This document shows, piece by piece, positions 2,845-38,378 of a stretch of 64,000 nucleotides of DNA. The notes beneath the pieces were generated by a model, which saw nothing but the letters and a program-made list of their open reading frames with translations, did not search any database and was not told the origin of the DNA. The stretch covers positions 4,340,001 to 4,404,000 of the forward strand of contig NZ_JARRAG010000002.1 in NCBI RefSeq assembly GCF_029589435.1. Direction: 5' to 3'. The first letter of the stretch is position 1, and each line of letters begins with the position of its first letter. Origin of the DNA: Paludisphaera mucosa (GTDB lineage: Bacteria > Planctomycetota > Planctomycetia > Isosphaerales > Isosphaeraceae). The translations under genes and the position numbers were made by a program.

Positions 2845-4713
2845 ATGAGGGTATTCGAAAACGCCCGCGCAGGCCTCCTCGCGTTCGTCGTCGCGAGCGC
2901 CGCGACGTCGACCCGCGGCGCCGGGCTCCCGGCGGCGGGGGCCGATCTCGACTCGGTCGAAAGCCGGTCTTATCCCGTCTGTTCGGCCGTCGTCGACGTC
3001 ACGAAGGCTCCTTATTTCGCCAGGGGCGACGGCGCGACCGACTGCACCGACGCCCTCCAGGAGGCCCTGTCCGAGACGATGGGCCGGCGCAAGATCCTCT
3101 ACCTCCCCGAGGGCGTCTACCTGGTGTCCCGCACCCTCGAATGGTCCAAGAAGAACGCCGACGGGCGGGACGCCTGGGGCTTCAACGCGGTCCAGGGCCG
3201 GCACCCGCGACGCAGCGTCATCCGCCTGAAGGACGCCGTCTTCACCGACGCGAGCGCGCCGAAGGCCGTCATGTGGTGCGGCGGATTCGGCTCGGCCGAC
3301 TGGTTCCACAACTACGTCCAGGGCGTCACCATCGACGTGGGCCGCGGCAATCCGGGCGCGATCGGGCTGCAGTTCTACTCGAACAACACCGGGGCGGTCC
3401 GCGACGTCGCGATCGTGTCCGGCGACGGCCGGGGGGCGGTCGGTCTGGACCTGGGCCATCGCGACATGAACGGCCCTCTGCTGGTCCGGAACGTCGAGGT
3501 CCGCGGCTTCGACGTCGGGATCCGCACCGGGGCTGTCGTGAACAGCCAGACGTTCGAACACCTCCGCCTGTCCGGCCAGCGCGAGGTGGGGTTCGCCAAC
3601 TTCGGCCAGGCCGTCGCGATCCGCGGCCTCGCCAGCGACAACGCGGTCGTGGCGCTTCGAACCGAGGGATTCACGGCGATCCTCGAGAGCGAGCTGATCG
3701 GTCGGGGCGTCGCCGGTGGAGCGCCCGCCGTGCAGGTCGGCAAGGCCCCGTTCTTCGCCCGCGACGTCGCGACCCGCGGCTACAAGGCGGCGCTGGCGGC
3801 GGAGGGGGGCGGCGCGGCGCCCGCCGGGGAGAACCTCGCCGAGTATTGCAGCGGCGGGCCCACGAACCCCTTCGGCTCCTCGTCGGCGTCGCTCCGACTC
3901 CCCGTGCGCGAGACTCCCGACGTCCCATACGGCGACCCGGCGGGCTGGGCCGTCGTCGACGCCTTCGGCGCCGACCCCACGGGCGACGCCGATTCGTCGG
4001 CCGCCATCCAGAAGGCGATCGACTCGGGCACCGAGACGGTGTTCTTCCCGGGTTCCTACGACATCCGGTCGCCCGTCCGGGTCCGCGGCAAGGTGCGGCG
4101 GCTGCTGGGGGTCGGCAACTGGCTCGACTACAACAAGCACTCCGCGCCCGACCTGATCATCGCCGACGGCGACGCCCCCGTGGTGGTCATGGAGCATTTC
4201 GCGTCGGTCAACGGCGGCGTCGCCGTCGAGACCGATCGGTCGGTGGTCTTCCGCAGCGTGCAGGACGCCTTCATCGCGCCCGTCGCCGCGGGGGACCTCT
4301 TCCTCGAAGACGTCGCCACCGCCGACCTGCGCCACAGCCCCGGCCAGAACGTCTGGGCGAGGCAGCTCGACATCGAGAACCAGGGGACGCACCTGACCAA
4401 CGCCGGCGGCAAGCTCTGGGTCCTGGGCTACAAGACCGAGCGAGGCGGCTGCCTGGTGCGGACGTCGAACGGGGGGGCGACCGAGATCTTCGGCAACTTC
4501 AGCTACACCACCACCGCCGGCTCGCTCGCGCCGATGTTCGTCACGGAGGACGCGTCGGTCTTCGCCTTCTTCAACGAGGTCTGCTTCAGCGGCGACCCGT
4601 TCCGGACGCTCATCCGCGAGCGGCGGGGCGACGCCACCCGGATCGTCCGGCGCGGCGAGGGGAGCCTCGCGCCCTACGTCGCCAATCCCGCCGCACGCCG
4701 CGACGGCCGCTGA
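2845..4713 (+). CDS. Secreted pectate-lyase-superfamily beta-helix protein
   Basis: This 622-residue protein probably starts at the ATG at 2845, because a signal peptide (MRVFENARAGLLAFVVASA) begins exactly there. The frame is open 62 codons further upstream but that part is not protein-like. Two segments have the Pectate_lyase_3 opening pattern of GADPTGDADSS-type sequence followed by a conserved LPEG/FPGS turn: one near residues 55-95 (GDGATDCTDALQEAL) and one near 370-415. Right-handed beta-helix repeats fill the rest. Such folds act as lyases or glycosidases (GH28/GH55-like) on polysaccharides. I see no confident catalytic signature, so the reaction is unknown. Its 3' end overlaps a strong hairpin shared with the convergent DUF1877 gene. 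Confidence 0.75.
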   Translation: MRVFENARAGLLAFVVASAATSTRGAGLPAAGADLDSVESRSYPVCSAVVDVTKAPYFARGDGATDCTDALQEALSETMGRRKILYLPEGVYLVSRTLEWSKKNADGRDAWGFNAVQGRHPRRSVIRLKDAVFTDASAPKAVMWCGGFGSADWFHNYVQGVTIDVGRGNPGAIGLQFYSNNTGAVRDVAIVSGDGRGAVGLDLGHRDMNGPLLVRNVEVRGFDVGIRTGAVVNSQTFEHLRLSGQREVGFANFGQAVAIRGLASDNAVVALRTEGFTAILESELIGRGVAGGAPAVQVGKAPFFARDVATRGYKAALAAEGGGAAPAGENLAEYCSGGPTNPFGSSSASLRLPVRETPDVPYGDPAGWAVVDAFGADPTGDADSSAAIQKAIDSGTETVFFPGSYDIRSPVRVRGKVRRLLGVGNWLDYNKHSAPDLIIADGDAPVVVMEHFASVNGGVAVETDRSVVFRSVQDAFIAPVAAGDLFLEDVATADLRHSPGQNVWARQLDIENQGTHLTNAGGKLWVLGYKTERGGCLVRTSNGGATEIFGNFSYTTTAGSLAPMFVTEDASVFAFFNEVCFSGDPFRTLIRERRGDATRIVRRGEGSLAPYVANPAARRDGR

Positions 4714-4740
4714 CGCCGTCCCGTCGCGAGCCTCGTGCGG
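4691..4740. terminator. Bidirectional hairpin between convergent genes
   Basis: Two stem blocks pair in order: CCGCACG (4691-4697) with CGTGCGG (4734-4740), and CGCGACGG (4699-4706) with CCGTCGCG (4721-4728). The hairpin spans the stop codon of the pectate-lyase-like gene and lies before the end of the convergent gene. There is no T tract, so termination is inferred from stem strength and position. Confidence 0.45.
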
Positions 4741-4751
4741 CGGCTTGCCGG

Positions 4752-5354
4752 CTAGGTCACGATCGCCAGGACGCCCTCGCCGCGGGCAGCCGCGTCGGTA
4801 TAGAGCGAGCGGAAGCCCTCGAAGCCCGCGGCGATCCGATCCCAGGTCTGGGGGTCGTCGCCGGCGCCCCAGATCTTGTAGACGTGCTGCTCCAGCATCA
4901 TCCCGGGATCGTAGGCCGAGCGGAGGTCCTCGACCGCCTGCCCGGCGAGCCAGGCGGCGATCGCGCCCACCTCGGCGGGGGGCGAGTAGCGGATTGCATG
5001 CCCCTGGCCGCCCAGGAGGTGCCCGGGGAGGCCGTTCGCGCCGAGGATCGCCTTCGAGCCCAGATCGGCCGCGTCGGGCTCGCCGCGTCGTCGCTCCTCG
5101 GAGAGCAGGAAATGGAGCATGTCGAAGAGGCGGTCGAGGGTGAAGACGCGGCCGTCGATCCCCGGGTGCGAGCGGTTCATGGCGTCGACCGCCGCCAGGA
5201 ACTCGGAGTAGAAGCCGCGGTGATTGCGACCGTGCCTATCCGGCTCGAACAGCCAGGGCAGGCTGAGATTCTCGCCGAACGTCGGGTCGGCCAGGGCGCG
5301 CGTCAGGAGGGGGCCTTCGTCGACGATCGCGACATACCAACGCTCGATGCCCAT
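4752..5354 (-). CDS. DUF1877 (YfbM-like) family protein
   Basis: The likely start at 5354 gives a 200-residue protein opening with MGIERWYVAIVDEG, the usual opening of DUF1877 proteins, and containing FTLDRLFDMLHFLLS in the middle. An upstream ATG at 5417 would add 21 residues that do not look like the family. DUF1877 proteins are small cytosolic proteins found mainly in actinobacteria, enterobacteria and planctomycetes; their role is unknown. There is no signal peptide. The gene is divergent from the sugar isomerase/epimerase gene, with 178 bp between the starts. Confidence 0.75.
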   Translation of the reverse strand: MGIERWYVAIVDEGPLLTRALADPTFGENLSLPWLFEPDRHGRNHRGFYSEFLAAVDAMNRSHPGIDGRVFTLDRLFDMLHFLLSEERRRGEPDAADLGSKAILGANGLPGHLLGGQGHAIRYSPPAEVGAIAAWLAGQAVEDLRSAYDPGMMLEQHVYKIWGAGDDPQTWDRIAAGFEGFRSLYTDAAARGEGVLAIVT

Positions 5355-5532
5355 CGGACGCTCCAGGTTGGGTTTCGCCAGGCCGACGACGCGGGTCGGG
5401 CGCCTCGACTGTAACACGGGGAAGCGGGCGGCCGCCGCACGTCAGCGGACCGGCCCCTTGTGCGGCCGTGCGGGCCGGTCACAATGTCGGGAGCCGGCCG
5501 CCCGCCTATCTCGTCGACCGAGGCCCCACGCC

Positions 5533-6306
5533 ATGCTCCAGCTCGGGATCGTGACCTACAACATCGCCAAGGATTGGGACCTCCCCACGATCCTTCAGAA
5601 GCTCGAAGCCCTGGGCTACGGCGGGGTCGAGCTGCGTACCACGCATCGCCACGGCGTCGAGGTCGGGCTCTCGGCCGAAGCCCGCCGGGAGGTGCGCAAG
5701 CGGTTCGCGGACTCGCCCGTCGAGCTGGTGGGGTTGGGGAGCGCGTTCGAGTATCAGAGCGCGGACCCGGCGGAGGTCCGCAAGCAGGTCGCCGAGACGA
5801 AGGAGTACGTGCGGCTGGCGCACGACGTCGGGGCCCCCGGCGTGAAGGTCCGGCCCAACGGGATCCCCAAGGGCGAGGTCGCCGACGCCGTCTTCCGTCG
5901 CATCGGCGAAGCCCTGCATGAAGTCGGCGAGGACGCCGAGGGACAGGGGGTCGAGATCCGCGTCGAGGTCCACGGCGCGGGGACCGCGGAGTGGCCCGGG
6001 TTCGCTAAAATCATCGAGTACGCCGACCATCCCAACGTCGGCGTCTGCTGGAACTCCAACCCGCAGGACGTCCCCAAAGAGGGCGGCTCGATCGCGACCA
6101 ACTTCCGCCTGGTCGCGGGCAAGATCCGCACCGTCCACCTCCGAGACCTGACCGACGAGGCGTACCCCTGGAAAGAGCTGTTCGCTCTGCTGACGGCAAG
6201 CGGCTTCGACGGCTACACCCTCGCCGAGATCCCCGAGAGCGCCGACCCCGACCGCGTCCTCCGCTACTTCCGCGCCCTGTGGCTGGCCGATCAACCCGCA
6301 CGCTGA
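5533..6306 (+). CDS. Sugar phosphate isomerase/epimerase (xylose-isomerase-like TIM barrel)
   Basis: The 257-residue product starts with MLQLGIVTYNIAKDWDL and has the AP_endonuc_2/xylose-isomerase-like barrel pattern: YGGVELR in strand two, a conserved EVHG metal-site segment, NVGVCWN, the KIRTVHLRDL segment, and YTLAEI near the end. The acidic and histidine residues in EVHG, VHLRD and LAEI are the usual metal ligands. Family members isomerise or epimerise sugars or inositols; the substrate cannot be told here. There is no signal peptide, so it is cytosolic. It is followed 20 bp downstream by a secreted metallopeptidase gene on the same strand, so the two may share a transcript although their functions are not obviously linked. 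Confidence 0.8.
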   Translation: MLQLGIVTYNIAKDWDLPTILQKLEALGYGGVELRTTHRHGVEVGLSAEARREVRKRFADSPVELVGLGSAFEYQSADPAEVRKQVAETKEYVRLAHDVGAPGVKVRPNGIPKGEVADAVFRRIGEALHEVGEDAEGQGVEIRVEVHGAGTAEWPGFAKIIEYADHPNVGVCWNSNPQDVPKEGGSIATNFRLVAGKIRTVHLRDLTDEAYPWKELFALLTASGFDGYTLAEIPESADPDRVLRYFRALWLADQPAR

Positions 6307-6326
6307 AGCCTTCCTTCGGACCCGAC

Positions 6327-7067
6327 ATGCGCACCACCCTCCGCGTCCCGCTCGCCGCACTGGCGGGCCTTTCGATCTTGCTCGCCCGCCCTTCGGCCGC
6401 GCAGGAGCCCACCGCGAACTACGAGACGCGGGACGTCGTGGGCTGGACCGTCCGCGTCCACCGCGACTTCCCCCGCGACGAGCCCGAGCTGGCCCACCAC
6501 GTCCTGTCGCTGCTGGCCGATCAGCTTCGCGCCATCGTCCGCGCCGTGCCGGCCGAGGCCGTGGCGAAGCTCAGGACGATCCCGATCTGGGTCGACAAGG
6601 CCGAGCCGCACCATCCCTGCATGGCGTACCACCCCGACGCCGGCTGGCTGCGCGAGCACGACATGAACCCCGACAAGGCCCGTTGCGTCGAGATCGCCAA
6701 CGCCCGCAACTTCCTCGACTGGTGCCGCGACCAGCCCTGGATGGTCTTTCACGAGCTGGCCCACGGCTATCACCACCAGGCCCTGGAAGGCGGCTTCGAG
6801 AACGCCGAAATCGCCGCCGCCCTGGAGCGGGCCCGAGCTGCGAAGACCTATGAAAAGGTGCTCCACATCAACGGGAGCGAGCAGCGCCATTACGCGTTGA
6901 CCAACCCGATGGAGTTCTTCGCCGAGTCCTCCGAGTCGCTCTTCGGGACCAACGACTTCTATCCTTTCGTCCGCGCCGAGCTGGCGAAGCACGACCCCGA
7001 AGCCCATGCTTTGCTGAAACGCCTGTGGTCGATCGCGCCCGCCGGCGGGGACGGCGAAAGGCCCTGA
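6327..7067 (+). CDS. Secreted zinc metallopeptidase-like protein (HELAH motif)
   Basis: The ATG at 6327 opens a clean signal peptide (residues 1-25, ending PSAAQ). The mature protein contains HELAHGYHH at 142-150, a HExxH zinc motif, and a downstream NPMEFFAES segment near residue 200 in which an acidic residue could be the third zinc ligand, as in gluzincins. Total length is 246 residues. The upstream region includes a conserved-looking CMAYHPDAGWL segment. I do not recognise a named peptidase family. The layout resembles small anthrax-lethal-factor-like metallopeptidase domains, but this is inference. The gene lies 20 bp after the isomerase/epimerase gene and ends in a strong bidirectional hairpin. 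Confidence 0.65.
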   Translation: MRTTLRVPLAALAGLSILLARPSAAQEPTANYETRDVVGWTVRVHRDFPRDEPELAHHVLSLLADQLRAIVRAVPAEAVAKLRTIPIWVDKAEPHHPCMAYHPDAGWLREHDMNPDKARCVEIANARNFLDWCRDQPWMVFHELAHGYHHQALEGGFENAEIAAALERARAAKTYEKVLHINGSEQRHYALTNPMEFFAESSESLFGTNDFYPFVRAELAKHDPEAHALLKRLWSIAPAGGDGERP

Positions 7068-7069
7068 GG

Positions 7070-7106
7070 CCGCGTCCGACCTCCCCGGCGAGGGAGACGG
7101 ACGCGG
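7070..7106. terminator. Strong bidirectional hairpin
   Basis: CCGCGTCCG (7070-7078) pairs with CGGACGCGG (7098-7106), and an inner CTCCC (7081-7085) pairs with GGGAG (7092-7096) around a six-base loop. It lies 2 bp after the metallopeptidase stop and between convergent genes, so it can serve both. There is no clear T tract. Confidence 0.6.
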
Positions 7107-7150
7107 GCCCCAGGGCCGCGGGATTCCGGGAGCCTCGACGCCGGGAAGCG

Positions 7151-7792
7151 TCAGGCGGGGCGGCGGCGGAACCGACGGCCGGCCAGCAGGCCGACCGAGC
7201 CGAGGCCCAGGAGGGCCATCGACGACGGCTCGGGGACGGCGGCGTTGTACGAGCCGGTCATCTCGACGATGAGGCCCGTGGGGGCTCCGTGCGTGTTCTT
7301 CGTCACGAAGACCAGGTTGTTCACGCCGATCTGGAAGTTGCTGGCGGCCGAGAAGTTGAACCACGACCCGTAAGACTCGTCGGTCGTGGTGATCCCCAGG
7401 GACTGGCCGTTGAGGAAGACGTCCTGGATCATGTCGTCCGAGGTCAGCCGGCCGCCGATCACGGCGGAGGCCAGGTCGGCGCCGCCGCCCACCGTGAACG
7501 TGGTGGCGTAGGTGTAGGTCCCGTTGGGCTGGCCGCCCGTGGGGACGATCCACTGGGCCGTCGAGGTGTTGGCCACCCAGCTCCCCGCGAGCCGCCCCAC
7601 GACGGGGGCCGTGGCGGCGCCCGCCTCGTAGGCGACCGTGTAATGCAGGTCCGAAGCGCCGTCGGCCAGGAGGCCGTGCGAGGAGTTCACACCGGTGTTG
7701 TACAGGTCGGCGATCGTCACGTTGCCGCCCCGGACGTCGGAGCCCGCGACGGCCAGGACCAGACCCAGGGCGAGGAACCATTTTGCAATCAT
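7151..7792 (-). CDS. PEP-CTERM sorting domain protein
   Basis: This 213-residue exported protein has a signal peptide (MIAKWFLALGLVLAVAGS) and a textbook PEP-CTERM tail: VPEPSSMALLGLGSVGLLAG followed by the basic RRFRRRP end. In the established model exosortase recognises this tail and the protein is processed and released to the surface or matrix. The body is rich in small and polar residues with no enzyme motif, as is typical for these proteins. No exosortase gene lies in the window. The start is preceded by an unusually AT-rich leader. Two more PEP-CTERM proteins lie at 18665 and 29098 with unrelated bodies. Confidence 0.85.
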   Translation of the reverse strand: MIAKWFLALGLVLAVAGSDVRGGNVTIADLYNTGVNSSHGLLADGASDLHYTVAYEAGAATAPVVGRLAGSWVANTSTAQWIVPTGGQPNGTYTYATTFTVGGGADLASAVIGGRLTSDDMIQDVFLNGQSLGITTTDESYGSWFNFSAASNFQIGVNNLVFVTKNTHGAPTGLIVEMTGSYNAAVPEPSSMALLGLGSVGLLAGRRFRRRPA

Positions 7793-8350
7793 ACTTTTTA
7801 GGCTTTCATATTACGATCTTTTCATTCCATGAATAGGGGCGTGGGCGGACCGCCGGCACTCGCCGTCGGTCTCGAATAGGCGCGGATCGCCGCCGCGACG
7901 TCGCCCACGACGCCGTTCCCTTCCCAGACGGATCGCGCCCGGGGGAAGCCCCCTCGTGCAACCAGGGGGGCCGTCCCGACGCCCGGCCGATCCCGAGCCC
8001 GCCGGGGCCTTCTCATGCACTCACGAGGGGATTATTTGGAGTGGTCCCGAGACAAGTAAAGCTCGGCGAAGCCCCCGATGCAACGAACCGGCGCGATGTG
8101 ATCGAAGAGCGGCGGATGCGTGCCTCCGCGGCGGCGTCCGGGCGTCGGACGTGGGGCCGCGACCTCGATCGACCGACGGCCGGTCGAAAATCCGAAACAA
8201 GGCGTCACGCCCGCGGCGACCCCGGGGCTCGCTTGCAACCATGAATGGCCGCCGATAGAGTGACGGCCTGCGGGGGGACGACGGCTCGTGCCCGTGAGAC
8301 GTCCGAGATGAGATCGGCCGCCGCCCCTCCCCACATGGGGAGAGTTGACG
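7793..8350. other. Intergenic region, divergent promoters
   Basis: No convincing gene is seen. The first 50 bases, upstream of the PEP-CTERM gene, are AT-rich and probably hold its leader or promoter. The rest is high-GC, with short open frames on both strands that lack ribosome binding sites and family-like sequence. Confidence 0.4.
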
Positions 8351-28707: not shown

Positions 28708-29097
28708 CCGACGGCTCCGGACGGGAATGTGACGCGGGACGCTCCGCCCGAGGCCCTCGGCGCGGTTCATCTTCAGTCGCACACCGGGTCGGCTCGTTCA
28801 AGGCGGCACCGTCGGCCCGACGCATCGCCGCCGCCTCGCGACGTCCTCGAAAGTCGTCGAGGATTCGTCGCGGCGACGCCGTGATGCGCGCGAGCCTCCA
28901 CGCTCGTCGCTTCTCCGCAGCGCGAAGAACGCCGGCGGGCGACCGACTGTAGCTTGGGTGCATCCCCGGCCCGGAGCCCCGGCCGGTGGGTCGACGACCC
29001 GGGGGCGCCGGACGCCTCCGCCGTCCGCGTCGCAATGGTTGCGGCGCGGGGCCCCGCACGAGATTGCTCCTCACGACGCAGCGACCACCCCAGCCGA
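28708..29097. other. Divergent intergenic region
   Basis: No gene is supported. It is bounded by the starts of the YhhN-like gene (minus) and a PEP-CTERM gene (plus), so it must contain both promoters. No clear promoter boxes or repeats were recognised. Confidence 0.35.
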
Positions 29098-30039
29098 ATG
29101 GAGACCGCCTTGATTTCCTCGCCCGCCACCGCCTTCCGACGTTCCGCGTTCACCCTCGCCGCCGTCGCCGTCGCCGTCGCCGCCCCGGCGCGGGGCGACT
29201 CGATCCGCGCCGTCAGCGGCTTCACGTCCGTGGCCTCGGGCAACGCGACGACCGGGAACCGCGCCTTCATCGAGACCGGCTTCGTCGGCACCTCCTCGAC
29301 GCTGACGGCCGCCGACATCGACACGTTCAAGAGCGGCACGCTCGTCAACAGCAGCGGCACGTACAACTGGAACGACGTCGTCCCCAGCGACTTCGGCGAC
29401 GGCAACCTCTACCCCCAGAACCCCGACCGCGGCGACACCGCCACCCCGTTCCCGTCCGAGAACCTGGGCGGGGCCAAGCTGTCCGAGGTGTTCGAGCCCA
29501 AGAACCTCGCCTACCTGCTCGACGGCGAGTCGGACGTGAGCTGGACGCTCGACCTGCGCTACGCCCCCGGGATGGGCGTCTTCGCCGACGGCGACTCCTC
29601 GACGATGGAGCTGTTCCTGCTGGAGCGCGGGGCCAACAGCATCCTCGGCGTGCAGGCCATCCGCACGGACGGCAGCCTGACCGACGCCGTGCTGCTGAAC
29701 TTCCGCACCGGGACGGGCTCCGACTACGGCGTCGCCCGCAACGGGGGCCTGACCGACTACGAGCTCGACACGCTGGAGATCGACGGGGCGCAGGCCGTGT
29801 CGGGCATCGGCCTGGACCTGGGGGCCTTCGGCCTGACGGCGGGCCAGGCCGTCATCGGCTACCGCTTCTTCGCCCAGGCCGACACCCCGTCGCTCCACTT
29901 CGACGGTCCCGACTTCCTGGGCTTCGTCGGCACCGTGCACGCCCAGGCCGTCCCCGAGCCGGCCAGCCTCGCCCTCGCGGGCATCGGCGCCGCCGGCGTC
30001 GCGATCGCCGCGCTTCGCCGCCGCCGCAACGACGTCTGA
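29098..30039 (+). CDS. PEP-CTERM sorting domain protein
   Basis: The 313-residue protein starts at METALISSPATAFRRSAFTL with a signal peptide ending near APARGDS. It ends in VPEPASLALAGIGAAGVAIA and RRRRNDV, the PEP-CTERM tripartite tail. The body holds beta-rich phrases such as SWTLDLRYAPGMGVF and DYELDTLEIDG. It shows no enzyme motif and does not resemble the other two PEP-CTERM bodies in the window. A longer open frame upstream is not protein-like. A perfect 14-bp hairpin follows its stop. The expected processing by exosortase is established for the family, but no exosortase is in the window. Confidence 0.8.
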   Translation: METALISSPATAFRRSAFTLAAVAVAVAAPARGDSIRAVSGFTSVASGNATTGNRAFIETGFVGTSSTLTAADIDTFKSGTLVNSSGTYNWNDVVPSDFGDGNLYPQNPDRGDTATPFPSENLGGAKLSEVFEPKNLAYLLDGESDVSWTLDLRYAPGMGVFADGDSSTMELFLLERGANSILGVQAIRTDGSLTDAVLLNFRTGTGSDYGVARNGGLTDYELDTLEIDGAQAVSGIGLDLGAFGLTAGQAVIGYRFFAQADTPSLHFDGPDFLGFVGTVHAQAVPEPASLALAGIGAAGVAIAALRRRRNDV

Positions 30040-31251: not shown

Positions 31252-31709
31252 GGCGATCCTCCCGCCCGTATTGGTCGCCCCGGGTCGCAGTTCCTTACAA
31301 GAATCAGCCTGCGTCTCGCGCCTTCACTTGAGAGGAACATCCGTCGAGAAGACGGTGGCTCTCGCGGCCTCCTTGAGCAAAAAGCTCTACATTTTTTTGC
31401 AATTCTTACAAGCCGCCCGCGCAACCGCGCCGCCACCTCGACGCAACCGGCATTTATTGCGATTTCGACAATCTTTCGCCAGCTTCCAGGGAACCCCGGA
31501 TTTCGCTCATCTTTCGCAATCGTCCCAAGTTCAGGCTGAGTGTCGGACGATAAAGAGGGGCGATGGGGGAAGCAGGGAGATGCGGGTGCGAGGGCGCCCC
31601 GGACTCCGCGTTGACGACCTACCGGGGATGGGCTATGGTGCCGCCGCTCGAAGGCCTCGTCCGATCCGACGTCGGGCATGGAGCCGCAAGCCGGGCAGGG
31701 AGGCCCAGG
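31252..31709. other. Divergent intergenic region
   Basis: No gene is supported. The part around 31380-31420 is unusually AT-rich for this genome (a run of seven T and TTGCAATTCTTACAAG), so the promoters for the ECF sigma gene and for the kdsD operon probably lie here. The kdsD frame is open back to 31563 but that part is not protein-like. Confidence 0.4.
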
Positions 31710-32732
31710 ATGGCGACGATCTCGGAAGCGACCACGGTCCCGGAGACGGAGGCCGAGGCCCTGGCGTTCGCCCGCCGGGTCCTGCGGGACGAGGCCGCGG
31801 CGCTGGCCGGCGTCCGCGAGCGGCTCGACGGCTCGATCGTGCGGGCGGCCCGATTGGTCTACCAGTGCCAGGGGGGCGTGATCGTCACCGGCATGGGCAA
31901 GGCGGGCCTGGTGGGGCAGAAGACGGCCGCGACGTTCGCGTCGACCGGCACGCGGGCCTACCCGCTGCACCCCGGCGAGGCCGTCCACGGCGACATGGGG
32001 CGGATCCGCGACGGCGACGTCGTCGTCGCCTTCTCGCAGAGCGGCGAGACCGAGGAATTGCTGCGGATCCTGCCCTCGGTGCGGCGGATCGGCGCGCGGC
32101 TGGTCGCCGTCACCGAACGCGCGAGCAGCTCGCTGGGGCGGGCGGCCGACGTCTGCATCGCGATGGGCCCGATCGCCGAGGCCTGCCCGCTGGGCCTGGC
32201 CCCGTCGGCCAGCACGACGGCGATGATGGCCGTCGGCGACGCGCTCGCGCTGCTGGTCTCGCGGATGCGCGACTTCACCCCCGAGGACTTCGCGCTCAAT
32301 CATCCGGCGGGGACGCTCGGGCGGCGGCTGACGCGGGTCGAGGACGTGATGCGTACCGGCCGCGACGTCCGCACGGCGACCCCCGGCGAGACCGTCCGCC
32401 AGGTGTTCGTCCGCCTGGCCGGGCCGCGGCGCCGCTCGGGCGCGGTGCTCGTCCGCGACGACCAGGACAGGCTGCTGGGCATCTTCACGGACAGCGACCT
32501 GGTGCGGCTCTTCGAGAAGCGCCGGGAGGCCGAGCTGGACCGGCCGATCGGCGAGGTCATGACCGCGAACCCGTTCCGCGCCACGGCGGGCGCGATGCTG
32601 GGCGAGGCGGTCGAGCTGATGAAGGGTCGCAAGATCAGCGAACTCCCCGTCGTCGACCGGGAGGGCCGGCTCCTGGGCCTGATCGACGTGACCGACCTGA
32701 TCGGGACGTCCCCCGAGGACTTCGAGGAGTGA
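31710..32732 (+). CDS. kdsD: KpsF/GutQ-type D-arabinose 5-phosphate isomerase
   Basis: The 340-residue protein has an N-terminal SIS sugar-isomerase domain (GGVIVTGMGKAGLVGQK at about 50, FSQSGETEELL at about 108, and the LAPSASTTAMMAVGDALA segment) and two C-terminal CBS domains (DVMRTG at about 215, IGEVMTANPFRAT at about 285). It converts ribulose 5-phosphate to arabinose 5-phosphate, the first step to Kdo, a sugar of lipopolysaccharide. A frame open upstream to 31563 lacks protein-like sequence. The gene is followed 5 bp later by kdsC and then by a giant Lpt-like gene, the same order as kdsD-kdsC-lptC-lptA in proteobacteria. Confidence 0.9.
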   Translation: MATISEATTVPETEAEALAFARRVLRDEAAALAGVRERLDGSIVRAARLVYQCQGGVIVTGMGKAGLVGQKTAATFASTGTRAYPLHPGEAVHGDMGRIRDGDVVVAFSQSGETEELLRILPSVRRIGARLVAVTERASSSLGRAADVCIAMGPIAEACPLGLAPSASTTAMMAVGDALALLVSRMRDFTPEDFALNHPAGTLGRRLTRVEDVMRTGRDVRTATPGETVRQVFVRLAGPRRRSGAVLVRDDQDRLLGIFTDSDLVRLFEKRREAELDRPIGEVMTANPFRATAGAMLGEAVELMKGRKISELPVVDREGRLLGLIDVTDLIGTSPEDFEE

Positions 32733-32737
32733 CGCGC

Positions 32738-33304
32738 ATGACGCCCCCGGCAAGCCGATCGGCCGCGATCCCGGCCGACCTCGAAGCGCGGTGCGCGGCG
32801 ATCGAGCTGCTGGCGGTCGACGTCGACGGCGTCCTGACCGACGGCCGGATCATCGTCGACGACGCCGGCGTCGAGTCGAAGAACTTCTACGTCCGCGACG
32901 GCCTGGGCTTCGTGCTCTGGCACCGGGTCGGCAAGACGTCGGCCATCCTCTCGGGCCGCCGGGCCGCGGTCGTCGACCGCCGCGCCGCCGAGCTCAAAAT
33001 CCACCGCGTCGTCCAGGGGATCGCCGACAAGGGCGAGGCGCTCCGCGCGTTGCTGGCCGAGACCGGCGCGGGGGCGGGGCAGGTGTGCTACGTCGGCGAC
33101 GACCTGATCGACCTGCCGGCCCTGCGGGCCGTCGGCCTGGCGGCCTGCCCGGCCGACGCCGTCGACGAGGTCCGGGCCGCGGCCCACCTCACGACCCGCT
33201 CGACCGGCGGGAGCGGCGTGATCCGCGAGATCGTCGAGGTGATCTTGAAGGCTCAGGGGCTGTGGCACGTCGCTTGCGGTTCGTACCTTTCGCCGGCGAC
33301 GTGA
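32738..33304 (+). CDS. kdsC: 3-deoxy-D-manno-octulosonate 8-phosphate phosphatase (HAD IIIA)
   Basis: This 188-residue protein is the usual KdsC length. It carries the HAD nucleophile motif VDVDGVLTDGRI with D28 and D30, AILSGRRA (motif II serine), a conserved lysine in GIADKGEAL, and YVGDDLIDLPAL (motif IV). It removes phosphate from Kdo-8-phosphate in the cytosol to give free Kdo. It begins 5 bp after kdsD and precedes the 1291-residue Lpt-like gene by 106 bp. No cap domain is present, which is normal for the tetrameric C0-type KdsC. The assignment relies on both sequence and gene order. Confidence 0.88.
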   Translation: MTPPASRSAAIPADLEARCAAIELLAVDVDGVLTDGRIIVDDAGVESKNFYVRDGLGFVLWHRVGKTSAILSGRRAAVVDRRAAELKIHRVVQGIADKGEALRALLAETGAGAGQVCYVGDDLIDLPALRAVGLAACPADAVDEVRAAAHLTTRSTGGSGVIREIVEVILKAQGLWHVACGSYLSPAT

Positions 33305-33410
33305 GCAGGCTTCGGCGGGTCCGCCCGCCCGCGCCGGGGGACGATCCCCCGGCACCAACGACCGGGCCGGTCCTCGAACGCGGGGGCCGGGTGACCGACG
33401 ACCTTCCGGA

Positions 33411-36400
33411 ATGTCGAGTCGATTCGTGCTCAAGAAACTCTCCAAGCTCGCGATGGTCTTCGGCCTGCTGACGGCGGCCCACCTGGCGTACGTCCGCGCG
33501 TTCGACCGCGCCGTCGCCGGGCTGCGGTCGGCCCGCGGCGGCGGCGAGCTGGCGTTCCAGGTGCACGACTCGAAGAGCAAGACGATGGTCAAGCGGGTCG
33601 CCGCCCAGGTCTTCGGGCCCGACCACTGGACCAACTCCGACGACCTGCTCCGATACGTCGCCCCCGACAAGGGGGTCATCCTCTTCGCCATGAACTTCTC
33701 GCGGCCCACCGAGCGCGACGGCGTCCGGTTCGACGGCAAGCGGATCGAGGTCGATCCGGCGGCCGTCGTTTTGCGTTCCCCCAAGGGGGGGAGCACCCGG
33801 ACGATGACCAGCAAGAACGCCGTCATCGACTTCAACCAGCCGTTCGGCCTGAACGTCAAGGCCGACGCCGAGCCCCTGACCGTCAAGCGGGCCCGCCTCG
33901 AGCGCGACGTCATGATCCGCGACGACCGCGGCACGCCCGACGACCCGTCCGACGACCTGGTCGCCGGCCCGTTGACCAACGTCGAGTACGTCGACGACGG
34001 CGTCAACCCGGTCATCCGCACCGACTCCGACGTCGTCCTCGTCGACCGCAACCTCCGCGTCACCGGCACCGGGATGGAGATCCAGCTCCGCCCCAAGATC
34101 CACGGCGCGAGCAAGGGGAGCGGCTTCGACGGCGCCCAGCGGCTGACCCTCTTCAAGAACATCCGCGTCACGTTCCTCGACGTCGGCAGCACCGGCATGA
34201 TGCCCGACCTCGACGCCCAGCCGGCTTCCGGCGCGACGGCCAAGGCCAGGACCAAGGCCGGGGCGAAGCCCAGGCCGAAGGACCCCGCCGACGCGATCCC
34301 GCTCGACGTCCAGTGCGCCGGGCCCCTGATCGTCGAGCTGCCGCGCAGCCCCGCCGCGCCCTCGGTCGGGCCCCCCGAGCCCGCCGCGCCGACGTACGTG
34401 GAGTTCCGCAGCAACGTCGTCGTCCGCCGCGGCAAGCTCACCGAGCTGCCCGACCAGATCGACTGCGACACCCTCCACCTCACGCTCCTCCCCGACGAGA
34501 AGAAGAAGCCGGTCGTCGTCGCCGAGGCCGAGGCCGGGGCCGCGACGGCCGCCGAGGGCGGGGAGCCGCAGGAGGCCCAGGCGAAGGGCGGGGCGTTCGG
34601 CGGCCTGACGCTGCGGCGGCTCAAGGCGAGCGGCCACGTCGTCTGGGTCCAGTCGCCGACGAAGGGGGTCAAGATCCGCTGCGTGGAGCTGCTCCACTAC
34701 AAGGATCCGGCGGCCGGCAAGAACACCACCGTCTTCAACGGCGGCGGCCTCAAAAAGCTCTGGTTCGAGAAGCGCGACGTCGCCGCGGCCGGCGTCGAGC
34801 CCGCCGCGTCCCAGTCGGTCACGCACGTCTGGTGCACGGACGCCACGCTCACCGACGACGGCGACATGGGCCGCGCGGCGCTCGTCGCCAACGGCCCGGG
34901 GCTGCTGGAGACCCGTCCGTCCCCCGGCGCCGCCGCCCCCCCGCACGACGTCCCCCCCGCCCGCACGGCCGTCTGGCGGGACCAGCTCTGGCTCCAGAAC
35001 GAGATCGCCGAGGACGGCCGCACGCCGGGCAAGGTGCTGGTCCTCAAGGGCTCCCCGCGCGTCGAGGACCGGAACCAGAAGTCGTCGCTCGAGGCCGCCG
35101 ACCGCATCGTGGTCTGGCTGAACCCGACCGAGAAGGCCCCCGCGCTCACGGCCGACGGCCGCGAGGTCGTCCCCACCGCCTTCTTCCAGCCCGACCCCGC
35201 CGCGGCGGCCGCGCCCAAGGAGGCCCTCCCCAGCATTCGCCGGCTGCTGGCCGTGCAGGACGTCCACCTCGTCGACCCGACCCGCGACCTCCGCCTGCGG
35301 GAGCGCCTGGACGTCGACTTCGAGGCCGGGACCGTCGCCGCCTCGCCGCCGATCACGAACCCCAACCCGGTCGCCAAGCAGGCCGACCCGGCTCCGACGC
35401 CCGAGCCGGCGCCCGCCGCGAACGGCGAGGCCGTGCCCGACCTGACGCCGGTCCCCGGCCAGGCCGCGGCCGAGAAGCCCGCCGGCCCGAAGATGACCGC
35501 CCGCGCCGACCGCGCCCAGGCCGTGGTGATCGTCGGGGCGAAGTCGGCGGCCCGGGCCGGCGCCGCGACCCCGGCGAAGACCGGCGAGGAGCCGGCCTAC
35601 GAGCTTCGCGACGTCGAGATGCGCGGCGACGTCCAGCTCCACCAGGACCCCGGGGAGGGCAAGAAGGTCGGCACCGACGCCACGGGCGAGGTCCTCGTCC
35701 TCCGCACCGAGGCCAAGGGCCAGGTCGTCTTCGACCTCTACCACCACGACCAGCACTCGGCCAAGGGCCGGATGGTCGACGCCCGCAAGGCCCCCAAGGC
35801 CCGCGTCACCACCGACACGATGACGATCGAGGCCGACACCATCGGCGTCGACCAGAAGGCCGACCAGGCGTGGGCCTACGGCGAAGGCAAGCTCATCCAG
35901 CTCACCGACCGCGGCCTGTTCACCGACCGCCCCGCCGACGCGCCGAAGGACGGCGAAGCGCCCGAGGCCGCCGTGGTGAAGATCCGCAAGCGCGGCGGCA
36001 AGACGCTCTCGGAGAAGGTCCCCATCGTCATCACCTGGAAGAAGATGATGACCTTCGAGGGGGTCTCGCAGGACCCGCTCAAGCGGCCCGCGGCCAAGAT
36101 CAAGTTCATCGGCGGCGCCCATGCCCAGATGGAGGACGCCCTCCTGCACGGCGAGGAATCGCTGACCGCCTACACCGACAAGCCGATCCCGCTCGTCGAC
36201 GCCGGCAAGTTCTCGACCCCGGCCAAGCCCAAGGACCCGAACGCCGAGGCCGGGGCCGAAGAGCCGGAGCCGCGGGCCGACCTGTCCATGCTGGAAGTCC
36301 GGGGCACCAAGGAGATCGCGGCCCTGGCGGTCTCGCGGAAGGTCCATCCCGATCGCCCGGTGCTGCTCAGCCAGCAGCGCCTGGAGGCCGGCATGCTCAT

Positions 36401-37286
36401 CTACGACCGCCGCACCGGGACGTTCAAGGCGCCCGGCCCCGGCGAGGTCTTCCTCTACGACCGCAACGCCGACCCGACCAAGGCCCAGAACCCGGACGCC
36501 GACGCGGCCGTCGCCGCGGGGCCCGTCGTCCGCCCCACCGCGTTCGATCCCGGCCAGGACGAACCCGGCGGCTCGAAGCCGAAGCTCGCCGCCAATCCCG
36601 ACGCCCCCCGTCGCGCCGGGGCGGCCGGGGCCAAGCCCGCGCTCGCGCCCCTGGTGCTGACCCAGATCAAGTTCGTCCGCGAGATGCGGGGCCGGTTCGG
36701 CTCCGGCAAGCAGGACGACGTCGACGAGCAGCGCTGGGCCGAGTTCTTCGGCGCCGTCGAGACGGCCCGCGGCACCGTCGCCAACGAGGCGGTCCGATTC
36801 GACTTCGACCGCCTGCCTCCCGAGGCCTACTTCATGACCTCGGAGATGCTCCGGGTCATCAACGAGCCGCCGCCGCCGGGCGCCGCGAAGACCGCGAACG
36901 GGCGGAACTTCCTCAAGGCGTGGGATAACGCCTACGTCAAGGCCCGCGACACCGCCCTGCAGGCCGACGTCATCACCTACGACTCGCTCAACGACCTGGT
37001 CTTCGCCAACGGCCTCAACGGCCAGCCGGTGCAGATCGTCCGCCAGAACGCCCCCGGCCAGACCATGTCGCCGGGCCGCGCCCAGGCCGTCCGGTTCAAC
37101 CCCAAGTCGGGCGCCGCCGACCTCGTCGGCCCCGAGGTCTGGGCCCTCGTGGACAACGAGACCGGCGTCCGGCCCGGCATCGTCAAGCCCTACGATCCCA
37201 ACCCCAAGGCCGGCCCGAAGCCCAAGAAGCCCCCCGTCCGCATGCAGACCAACCCGGCCGAGCGCAAGGGCTTCACCGGACGTTGA
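33411..37286 (+). CDS. Giant LptC/LptA(OstA)-like envelope protein, 1291 aa
   Basis: The protein has a single N-terminal membrane anchor (KLAMVFGLLTAAHLAYVRA, about residues 11-29). A very long beta-rich exported part then alternates with low-complexity Ala/Pro/Lys linkers (for example 260-290, 365-385, 640-720 and 1060-1085). Several segments look like OstA/LptC strands (LTLRRLKASGHVVWVQS, TITYDSLNDLVFANG-type, RMVDARKAPKARVTTDTMTIEADTIG). It stands directly after kdsD and kdsC, exactly where lptC and lptA stand in E. coli, so a role in lipopolysaccharide transport across the periplasm is likely by synteny. LptC is normally about 190 residues and LptA about 185, so this one is about three times their sum. 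Direct homology is not proven. Confidence 0.6.
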   Translation: MSSRFVLKKLSKLAMVFGLLTAAHLAYVRAFDRAVAGLRSARGGGELAFQVHDSKSKTMVKRVAAQVFGPDHWTNSDDLLRYVAPDKGVILFAMNFSRPTERDGVRFDGKRIEVDPAAVVLRSPKGGSTRTMTSKNAVIDFNQPFGLNVKADAEPLTVKRARLERDVMIRDDRGTPDDPSDDLVAGPLTNVEYVDDGVNPVIRTDSDVVLVDRNLRVTGTGMEIQLRPKIHGASKGSGFDGAQRLTLFKNIRVTFLDVGSTGMMPDLDAQPASGATAKARTKAGAKPRPKDPADAIPLDVQCAGPLIVELPRSPAAPSVGPPEPAAPTYVEFRSNVVVRRGKLTELPDQIDCDTLHLTLLPDEKKKPVVVAEAEAGAATAAEGGEPQEAQAKGGAFGGLTLRRLKASGHVVWVQSPTKGVKIRCVELLHYKDPAAGKNTTVFNGGGLKKLWFEKRDVAAAGVEPAASQSVTHVWCTDATLTDDGDMGRAALVANGPGLLETRPSPGAAAPPHDVPPARTAVWRDQLWLQNEIAEDGRTPGKVLVLKGSPRVEDRNQKSSLEAADRIVVWLNPTEKAPALTADGREVVPTAFFQPDPAAAAAPKEALPSIRRLLAVQDVHLVDPTRDLRLRERLDVDFEAGTVAASPPITNPNPVAKQADPAPTPEPAPAANGEAVPDLTPVPGQAAAEKPAGPKMTARADRAQAVVIVGAKSAARAGAATPAKTGEEPAYELRDVEMRGDVQLHQDPGEGKKVGTDATGEVLVLRTEAKGQVVFDLYHHDQHSAKGRMVDARKAPKARVTTDTMTIEADTIGVDQKADQAWAYGEGKLIQLTDRGLFTDRPADAPKDGEAPEAAVVKIRKRGGKTLSEKVPIVITWKKMMTFEGVSQDPLKRPAAKIKFIGGAHAQMEDALLHGEESLTAYTDKPIPLVDAGKFSTPAKPKDPNAEAGAEEPEPRADLSMLEVRGTKEIAALAVSRKVHPDRPVLLSQQRLEAGMLIYDRRTGTFKAPGPGEVFLYDRNADPTKAQNPDADAAVAAGPVVRPTAFDPGQDEPGGSKPKLAANPDAPRRAGAAGAKPALAPLVLTQIKFVREMRGRFGSGKQDDVDEQRWAEFFGAVETARGTVANEAVRFDFDRLPPEAYFMTSEMLRVINEPPPPGAAKTANGRNFLKAWDNAYVKARDTALQADVITYDSLNDLVFANGLNGQPVQIVRQNAPGQTMSPGRAQAVRFNPKSGAADLVGPEVWALVDNETGVRPGIVKPYDPNPKAGPKPKKPPVRMQTNPAERKGFTGR

Positions 37287-37307: not shown

Positions 37308-38378
37308 TCACGCGCCCGGATAGCGGAAGTGCCAGCCTTCGATGGCCCGGACGGCGTTCAGGTCCTCGCGGGTGAAGCCGTAGCGGGCGAACCACGGCGA
37401 GCCGTGGGCGCGGACCTGGGCGTCGACGTCGACGAGGCGCCGGCGTGCCACGTCGGTCAGGAACGAGGCGCGGGCGGGGGCGTCGGCCTGCTGGAAGTAT
37501 TCCTTCCAGAAAGCCCGGCCGCCCAGCACGCCCGAGGCCCCGGCGCGCAGGGCCATCTCGACCTGTTCGAGGTACTGGTCGTAGTCCACGCCGGCCGAGA
37601 GCAGCACCCAGGGCCGTTCGGCGACGGCGTCGAGCGCCTGCAGGTTGTCCTCGAGCTGCTGGTCGCTCTCGCGGTCGAGCGTGCCGGGGAACTCGGCCTT
37701 GTAGACGTCGCAGTACCGGCTCAGCATCCGCGCCGTCTCGATCACCGTCTCGGCCTTGCGGTCCAGGAACGAGGCGTCCTGCTTGGTCTCGCCGTCGAGC
37801 GGGAAGGCGACGGCCTCCAGGAGCAGCAGCAGGTCGTGCCGCTTGCACTCCTCGTAGACCCGCTCCACCAGCGCGAAGTTGGCGTCGGCCGACTCGGGCT
37901 CGGTGGGCTCGAACTGGGCCAGGAACTTGATCCCGTCGGCCCCCATCCGCTTGGCCTTCTCCACGCCCCAGCCCGGCTCGATCGTCGCCAGCGGCGCGCC
38001 CTTCTTGCTCATCTCGTATTTCGTCCGCTCCAGGCGCAGGAGCAGGCCGACGTGGGGCGGGATCGTCCCCGAGGCCACCGCCGACCACGCGCCGTAGTAC
38101 GGGTCGATCAGCACGGCCGAGGCCGCCGTCGCGAGCCCCCGCATCAGGTCGAGCTTGGCCTCGACGACCTCCTCATAGGTCGCGCCGCGGTCCTCCCCGG
38201 CGCGCCGGAGGGCCTTGCCGGCCATGTCGACGACCGAGTTGTTCTGGTCGAGCGCCAGCATCGTGAGCGTGCCGTCGGGGTTGCTGATCCGCTGCAGGCC
38301 CCGGAGCTTGCCCGGCGTCAGCCCCTTCGACGCCAGCACGAACGCCCCTTGCTTCTTCGATCCGTCCCCGAACGTCAT
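37308..38378 (-). CDS. Tagatose 1,6-diphosphate aldolase-like (LacD family)
   Basis: The 356-residue protein has the LacD/class I aldolase barrel pattern: LQRISNPDGTLTMLALDQ at the first strand, VLIDPYYGAWSA, IKFLAQFEPTEP, and DVYKAEFPG with K227 as the likely Schiff-base lysine (equivalent to K205 of LacD), then LLSAGVDYDQYLEQVEMALRAGASGVLGGRAFW. It should split tagatose or fructose 1,6-bisphosphate into two triose phosphates. It starts divergently from a DUF1254 gene. A second class I aldolase of the DhnA type lies 4 kb away. Sulfofructose-phosphate aldolases (SqiA/YihT) are in a related superfamily, but no such pathway genes are here. Confidence 0.8.
   Translation of the reverse strand: MTFGDGSKKQGAFVLASKGLTPGKLRGLQRISNPDGTLTMLALDQNNSVVDMAGKALRRAGEDRGATYEEVVEAKLDLMRGLATAASAVLIDPYYGAWSAVASGTIPPHVGLLLRLERTKYEMSKKGAPLATIEPGWGVEKAKRMGADGIKFLAQFEPTEPESADANFALVERVYEECKRHDLLLLLEAVAFPLDGETKQDASFLDRKAETVIETARMLSRYCDVYKAEFPGTLDRESDQQLEDNLQALDAVAERPWVLLSAGVDYDQYLEQVEMALRAGASGVLGGRAFWKEYFQQADAPARASFLTDVARRRLVDVDAQVRAHGSPWFARYGFTREDLNAVRAIEGWHFRYPGA

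Follow-up and report, generated by a model that had tools for sequence, protein, structure and literature searches.

In a 64,000-nucleotide stretch of the Paludisphaera mucosa genome (NCBI RefSeq assembly GCF_029589435.1, contig NZ_JARRAG010000002.1, positions 4,340,001 to 4,404,000; here called the window), the genes kdsD and kdsC are followed by a single open reading frame (ORF) for a protein of 1291 amino acids (aa), referred to below as the giant. The giant is probably a covalently fused bridge for lipopolysaccharide (LPS) transport, in which LptC and LptA modules are combined in one chain. The original prediction, made from the sequence of the window, was that one oversized bridge replaces LptC and LptA at this place. 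It is supported by the present analysis, since both of its expectations held: LptC and OstA (LptA) profiles are found along the chain, and separate copies are not found in the genome with the models used. Beyond that earlier idea, single-chain proteins with a strong LptC match, often accompanied by LptA matches, stand at this position next to the kds genes in further families of planctomycetes. The gene order in Escherichia coli K-12 is kdsD-kdsC-lptC-lptA-lptB-rpoN, and the giant occupies the slot of lptC-lptA.

The reading of the giant as a fused bridge is based in part on profile-profile comparison, and its main support comes from related fusions in the phylum, described below. An alignment of full-length orthologues (A1), comprising 30 of 43 matched frames, with the 13 others omitted, mostly as fragmented, was compared by hhalign with two templates. 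Template A3 combines E. coli LptA with 22 modules taken from families other than the window's own, and template A4 is an alignment of LptC. Forty column shuffles per template and the reversed template served as controls. A4 is placed near the N-terminus of the giant and A3 at five places after it (Table 1). The shuffled A3 columns reach at most 0.5% and reversed A3 0.1%; for A4, shuffles and reverse alike reach at most 0.1%. A further placement of A3 falls inside the LptC region (17%). A1 also repeats upon itself, with profile columns 717-1199 aligned on 401-835 (96%) and 795-1005 on 978-1185 (84%), as compared to 5.9% for its own reverse. Thus the distribution of LptC and OstA profiles anticipated earlier was recovered, an LptC-like stretch near the N-terminus and LptA-like modules after it, with clean controls and weak direct matches. 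We read the giant as a putative LptC-like domain with about five LptA modules after it, of which three are well supported; the LptC part draws on the profile-profile result together with its position.

Table 1. Features of the kds locus and of the giant. Positions refer to the window; percentages and E-values of the domains are from hhalign with A1.
Feature	Position	Strand	Basis
kdsD, arabinose-5-phosphate isomerase	31710-32732	+	TIGR00393; Pfam SIS + CBS; ORF
kdsC, KDO-8-phosphate phosphatase (KDO, 3-deoxy-D-manno-octulosonic acid)	32729-33304	+	TIGR01670
Giant, LptC-(LptA)n-like bridge protein, 1291 aa	33411-37286	+	ORF; family matches; alignment A1
Putative N-terminal hydrophobic anchor, residues ~5-31	33423-33503	+	Hydropathy; hydrophobic N-terminus in A1
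LptC-like domain, residues 87-256	33669-34178	+	A1 vs A4, 86.9%, E 4e-6
LptA-like module 1, residues 295-433, contains linker 356-407	34293-34709	+	94.6%, E 6.5e-8
LptA-like module 2 (weak), residues 538-625	35022-35285	+	19.3%, E 0.0012
LptA-like module 3 (weak to moderate), residues 730-830	35598-35900	+	30.3%, E 5e-4
LptA-like module 4 (first half matched), residues 869-922	36015-36176	+	95.1%, E 3e-8
LptA-like module 5, residues 1105-1245	36723-37145	+	75.6%, E 2.4e-5; TIGR03002 match
C-terminal tail, conserved E-R-x-G-F-T-G end	37146-37283	+	Nearly invariant A1 columns E1284, R1285, F1288

The ORF of the giant starts with ATG and runs for 1291 codons without an internal stop. The 19-residue segment of highest hydropathy in the protein lies at residues 13-31, with a Kyte-Doolittle value of 1.58, just below the usual 1.6. 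The Pro/Ala linkers that had been noticed earlier could be located at five places, as stretches rich in Pro, Ala, Lys, Glu and Gly at residues ~268-299, 356-407, 643-732, 923-961 and 1044-1084. The beta-rich nature of the giant is something we infer from homology. The E-R-x-G-F-T-G terminus ranks with the best conserved parts of the protein and lies outside the LptA placements; a contact for LptD is a possible role for it.

Conservation within the family is high. A protein search matched the giant in 43 of the 45 genomes of the window's family, in 25 of 26 genomes of good quality, and in 19 of 21 genera. It is therefore no chance ORF. The orthologues in A1 are 1182-1557 aa long and share 35 invariant columns, and their linkers are variable. 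kdsD precedes the giant in the same orientation in all 30 of these loci, and in 26 of them kdsC is located between the two. In the four loci without a detected kdsC (L019, L029, L044, L050) kdsD ends 45-104 bases before the giant, and kdsC may have moved or been replaced there. One genome of the window's own genus is an exception, as the match to the giant falls in two overlapping frames (G031:C1:230469-234316, L006); this split is a frameshift or a sequencing error.

Proteins of this kind are not limited to the window's family. The A1 profile matches 10 of 99 planctomycete genomes, including that of the window. Another family in this class has giants of 988-1086 aa immediately after kdsD in four genomes. 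In a more distant family, three genomes have a giant immediately after kdsC (1019 and 1026 aa long in two cases). Pfam LptC exceeds its cut-off in 20 of the 99 genomes, and in 50 when a larger sample of 294 is taken. Of the 50 LptC ORFs a single one has the canonical size, with 178 codons, and 45 have 445-1751 codons. In 43 of the 50 a kdsC or kdsD gene precedes the ORF in the same orientation (in 42, mostly within 0.7 kb, and in G062); for the seven others neither was detected in up to 3.5 kb, as far as the contig reached. Ten long LptC proteins, picked by their LptC match, were scanned with curated models. Nine pass the Pfam LptC cut-off, and five pass the cut-off for LptA/LptD_N too, with up to four stretches each. 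With NCBIfam models, nine pass for LptC; LptA gives E-values between 9e-14 and 7e-20 in five, and is weaker or absent in the remaining five. None passes the LptA equivalog cut-off, the best reaching 71.5 versus 71.7.

Clear fusions among them are L131 and L139 (LptC and three LptA modules), L129 (LptC and four) and L134 (LptC and one), and L122 and L125 carry LptC and four to six LptA modules depending on the threshold. L131, L139 and L129 are kds-linked; upstream of L122 and L125 neither kdsD nor kdsC was detected. With an LptA-module hidden Markov model (HMM) at an independent E-value (i-E) below 1e-3, at least one module is counted in 43 of the 50 LptC proteins, at least two in 36, and at least three in 29. 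The maximum per protein is six, or seven at a looser cut. Only two of 250 decoys have any module below an i-E of 1, the best at 0.26. These counts lean on an HMM that was seeded partly from proteins among the 50; the Pfam and NCBIfam scans use other models.

The same genes also occur apart. In G080 lptC is followed by a separate frame of 175 codons with an LptA module, and in G062 kdsD and lptC are followed by a separate frame that contains two LptA modules (L130:1486-2640) and then by lptB and rpoN. Split and fused states thus coexist, the two-module frame of G062 being an apparent intermediate between them, and among genomes with detectable LptC the fused state is the commoner one. The survey covered Planctomycetota. 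In Verrucomicrobia at least one split case exists, as a Methylacidiphilum strain has LptA and LptC under separate, adjacent locus tags (PMC10542722).

The giant is connected to these fusions by homology. A1 alone matches L139, L129 and others at E ~2e-5. Its best match to a set of nine phylum fusion proteins begins at residue 693 (profile columns 691-924; 98.6%) and encloses module 3. When four giants of the sister family are added to A1, 12 of 18 other kds-linked or LptC-bearing proteins are matched at E 1.1e-12 to 2.4e-3, among them L139 (1.1e-8), L129 (1.8e-8) and L131 (1e-7); the best of 132 decoys reaches 0.032. The single sequences of the orthologues give weak signals of the same families. 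At E up to 10, TIGR03002 (LptA) matches 16 of the 30, at best 3.2e-4, and TIGR04409 (LptC) matches 12, at best 2.9e-5; Pfam LptD_N/LptA matches six and Pfam LptC five. The LptA-module HMM finds a domain below an i-E of 1 in all 30 (below 1e-3 in eight), and in none of 208 decoys. Against the PDB the A1 profile has a single match within E 10, to the LptA chain 8onu, whose E-value of 0.22 is not significant alone; a search of the PDB with the giant as a single sequence returned composition-biased matches only.

Stand-alone copies of LptA and LptC were sought in six frames across 8.2 Mb of the genome. PF03968 (LptA) has no match anywhere in it, and the sole match of PF06835 (LptC) is the giant itself (E 0.9). 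With TIGR03002 the giant comes first (E 0.2) and the frame of an LptD candidate second (E 0.44). In a search of 21 genomes with A3, all 13 matches at E up to 0.06 fall in the frame of the giant; of nine weaker matches, five are in the giant, one is in an LptD-like frame of G131 and three are in G028 and G008. The frames of the last three (E 0.17-0.87) look unrelated by reading. Seven of the 21 genomes gave no match. As anticipated, then, no stand-alone LptA or LptC was found in the window's genome with the three family models and the LptA-module profile. A highly diverged copy could escape these models, because the giant itself scores so weakly.

This result bears on the possibility that the giant is a structural tether or spacer between the membranes, which descends from LptC-LptA and has lost transport. 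The high divergence of the giant would fit such a role, as would the two weak modules and the long low-complexity linkers, which could interrupt a continuous groove. A tether would leave the genome with no other LptA or LptC found to do the transport, and both the retention of the gene in 19 of 21 genera and the common layout of the 30 aligned orthologues weigh against it. We regard loss of transport as very unlikely.

Several observations weigh against the reading of the giant as a fused LptC-LptA bridge. The window protein passes no curated cut-off for LptC or LptA: residues 201-228 match Pfam LptC (PF06835) with E 0.11 and 12.6 bits (cut-off 21) and NCBIfam LptC (TIGR04409) with E 0.005 and 16.4 bits (cut-off 38), and residues 1168-1211 match TIGR03002 with E 4e-4 and 20.3 bits (cut-off 71.7). 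The LptA-module HMM finds one domain only in it (i-E 0.074). An LptC HMM applied to single sequences is below an i-E of 1 in 10 of the 30 orthologues and below 1e-3 in none; its value for the window protein, 0.92, is hardly above noise, with decoys down to 0.56. Two module placements are weak (19% and 30%). With A1 alone the best decoy (0.0044) outranks several true fusions, such as L131 (0.009) and L122 (0.023), and the enlarged profile misses six of the 18 proteins (L126, L127, L128, L132, L133 and L134). In the phylum at large, 244 of the 294 genomes, that of the window included, have no LptC above the threshold, and seven of the 50 LptC proteins have no strong LptA module, including the long G331 (972 aa) and G245 (1249 aa). 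AlphaFold2 models of residues 1-620 and 1076-1258 have a predicted local distance difference test (pLDDT) of 29.3 and 46.5, respectively, and the second is largely helical at low confidence; their input was the window protein and one row from a relative, Paludisphaera soli (L001; Isosphaeraceae, Planctomycetota). To these are added the position of LptB and the weak evidence for LptD, both described below.

If the matches to LptC and LptA were due to compositional chance, the giant would be an unrelated repetitive beta protein, for example one similar to AsmA/TamB or an adhesin. Such an origin would account for direct matches that lie under every curated cut-off and for an LptC HMM that stays near noise on single sequences. 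It would not account for the failure of shuffled and reversed controls in the profile-profile test, for the failure of decoys with the LptA HMM, or for the chain of homology to proteins at the same locus that have curated LptC and LptA matches. In addition, no AsmA/TamB or adhesin family is among the six Pfam families matched by the 30 orthologues, and the giant was rejected as a member of either on this ground. Chance resemblance is thus the least probable of the explanations considered here, and we give it hardly any credence.

Other components expected of an LPS transport system are present in the genome, away from the giant. LptB (G000:C2:3046694-3047404) scores 330 bits against an equivalog cut-off of 240, and two adjacent genes of the LptF/LptG family lie at G000:C1:786690-789075. 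The expectation that lptB would be found downstream in related genomes was not borne out: tblastn with the genome's own and the E. coli LptB (E 1e-5) detected none near the giant, either in 22 family neighbourhoods or in the window. The identification of LptD is tentative. PF04453 found none in the genome. A highly diverged candidate of 1212 aa (L072:4692-8327, also given as 4431-8330) is 27% identical over 865 residues to a protein of the sister family, and fits E. coli LptD weakly (14.7% versus 0.3% reversed). It has no Pfam, NCBIfam or PDB match and no domain by the LptA-module HMM; a long Pro-rich stretch is visible by reading in its N-terminal part. LptD has been reported in Isosphaera pallida and Singulisphaera by iterative BLAST (PMC3422733).

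It could be argued that a bridge with the Lpt fold carries another envelope lipid or glycolipid than LPS, the kds linkage being a relic. In favour of this, four of the 30 orthologous loci have no detected kdsC upstream, and a cargo groove is unreadable from sequence. On the other hand, kdsD is retained upstream in all 30 loci, LptB and LptF/LptG are present in the genome, and the paper that records LptD in Isosphaera and Singulisphaera also cites genes for lipid A and KDO in planctomycete and verrucomicrobial genomes (PMC3422733). Another cargo is therefore improbable, and is the least unlikely of the alternatives to an LPS bridge.

The fused LPS bridge could work in the following way; its fold, groove, docking, direction of flow and cargo are what we infer from sequence. 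The N-terminal segment would anchor the giant in the inner membrane, and the LptC-like jellyroll would dock on LptF/LptG. KDO-lipid A, made using the products of the neighbouring kdsD and kdsC, would form part of the LPS cargo, which LptB2FG would push into the LptC domain. LPS would then move along a groove through about five LptA-like jellyroll modules in series, and the chain would end at the N-terminal jellyroll of LptD, which would receive it. In such a scheme the number of copies would be fixed within one gene, unlike in E. coli, where one LptC and separate, self-associating LptA copies build the corresponding stretch.

As a consequence, the gene itself may set how far the bridge reaches across the envelope, since related fusions have one to about six copies. 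It is a tentative idea, to which we give somewhat less than an even chance, that planctomycetes exchanged the self-assembling LptA bridge for single-gene LptC-(LptA)n chains in which module number acts as an encoded ruler for the spacing of the two membranes, so that lineages with a wider envelope space carry longer chains. The E. coli bridge is described as ~4 nm per LptA and ~15 nm with one LptA (PMC10863985); by this arithmetic five modules would span ~31 nm. The planctomycete paryphoplasm has been proposed to be an enlarged periplasm (PMC3422733). Across the 50 LptC proteins length and module number rise together only loosely, with a Spearman coefficient of 0.49 for strong modules and 0.61 when weaker modules are included, and six long proteins with few detected modules depart from the trend.

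A comparison with known systems places the giant between two E. coli proteins. Like LptC (b3199), it sits after kdsC and has a hydrophobic N-terminal segment and a domain (residues 87-256) that is homologous by profile comparison. Unlike LptC, which has 191 aa and stands alone, it has this domain fused to further modules, and the domain is below the PF06835 and TIGR04409 cut-offs. Like LptA/OstA (b3200), it has homologous modules of ~120-140 aa arranged in series; unlike LptA, which is separate and self-associating, it has about five copies joined by Pro/Ala linkers within a single, putatively anchored chain. It is not filed as LptC or as LptA, because it lies below the curated cut-offs and lacks the separate nature of LptA. 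It likely works like both and descends from both, as judged by homology. With L131, L139, L129, L122 and L125 it shares the order of LptC and then LptA modules in one chain; these other fusions of Planctomycetota are shorter and less diverged, and their LptC passes the curated cut-offs. The AsmA/TamB/YhdP proteins and the VPS13-type bridge-like lipid transfer proteins also bridge two membranes by one long chain, and are not known to be components of an Lpt system coupled to an ATP-binding cassette (ABC) transporter. The comparison concerns the manner of working, as the giant has no sequence match to these families.

In the literature searched (titles, the beginnings of abstracts and selected passages, with subscription papers mostly outside coverage), no report of a natural LptC-LptA fusion was found. 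The term 'LptCA' occurs in passages of four papers: in PMC4986956 and PMC9972910 it denotes the gene pair, in PMC10208570 an alanine mutant and in PMC10863985 a complex. Both the number of LptA copies in the E. coli bridge and whether that bridge is stable or transient are described as unknown (PMC10863985, PMC5575297). A chain with fixed, countable modules makes the question of copy number testable, by comparing the envelope gap with the module count across species. In a survey from 2022 (PMC8871954), Planctomycetes serve as an example of bacteria whose Lpt or Tol-Pal set is 'largely reduced'. The giant may fill the Lpt gap, in that the functions of LptC and LptA may sit in one unrecognised protein. 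A dedicated LPS bridge would also argue for a true outer membrane and periplasm in the debated envelope plan of planctomycetes.

The genes around the giant are as follows. The arrangement reported earlier, kdsD-kdsC and then one ORF of 1291 residues, is confirmed by curated models and by the ORF itself. KdsD scores 258.2 bits (cut-off 203.7) with TIGR00393, the model for KpsF/GutQ sugar-phosphate isomerases, and Pfam recognizes in it a SIS domain and two CBS stretches; an alternative start is an in-frame ATG at 31563. KdsC scores 136.4 bits (cut-off 107) with TIGR01670. Two models give slightly higher scores that lie under their own cut-offs (TIGR02726, 149 versus 282; NF007019, 144.6 versus 208). 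The two genes overlap, provided that kdsC starts at the GTG at 32729, and a gap of 106 bases separates kdsC from the giant on the same strand. Downstream, an ORF at 37308-38378, taken as a gene, has the opposite orientation and is convergent with the giant; its product is presumably aldolase-like. The cluster to which it belongs is found again, likewise downstream and in the opposite orientation, in 11 of the 22 longer family neighbourhoods, in which genes were called by a rough script, and another downstream cluster recurs in five.

Two further observations were made. In two genomes of one genus a shorter second relative of the N-terminal half of the giant occurs besides the full-length gene (G038:C5:5123862-5125334 and G037:C1:132723-133418, with open frames of 804 and 572 codons, respectively). 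In the window, the ORF at 28954-30039 ends, by reading of its sequence, in a PEP-CTERM-like sorting signal.

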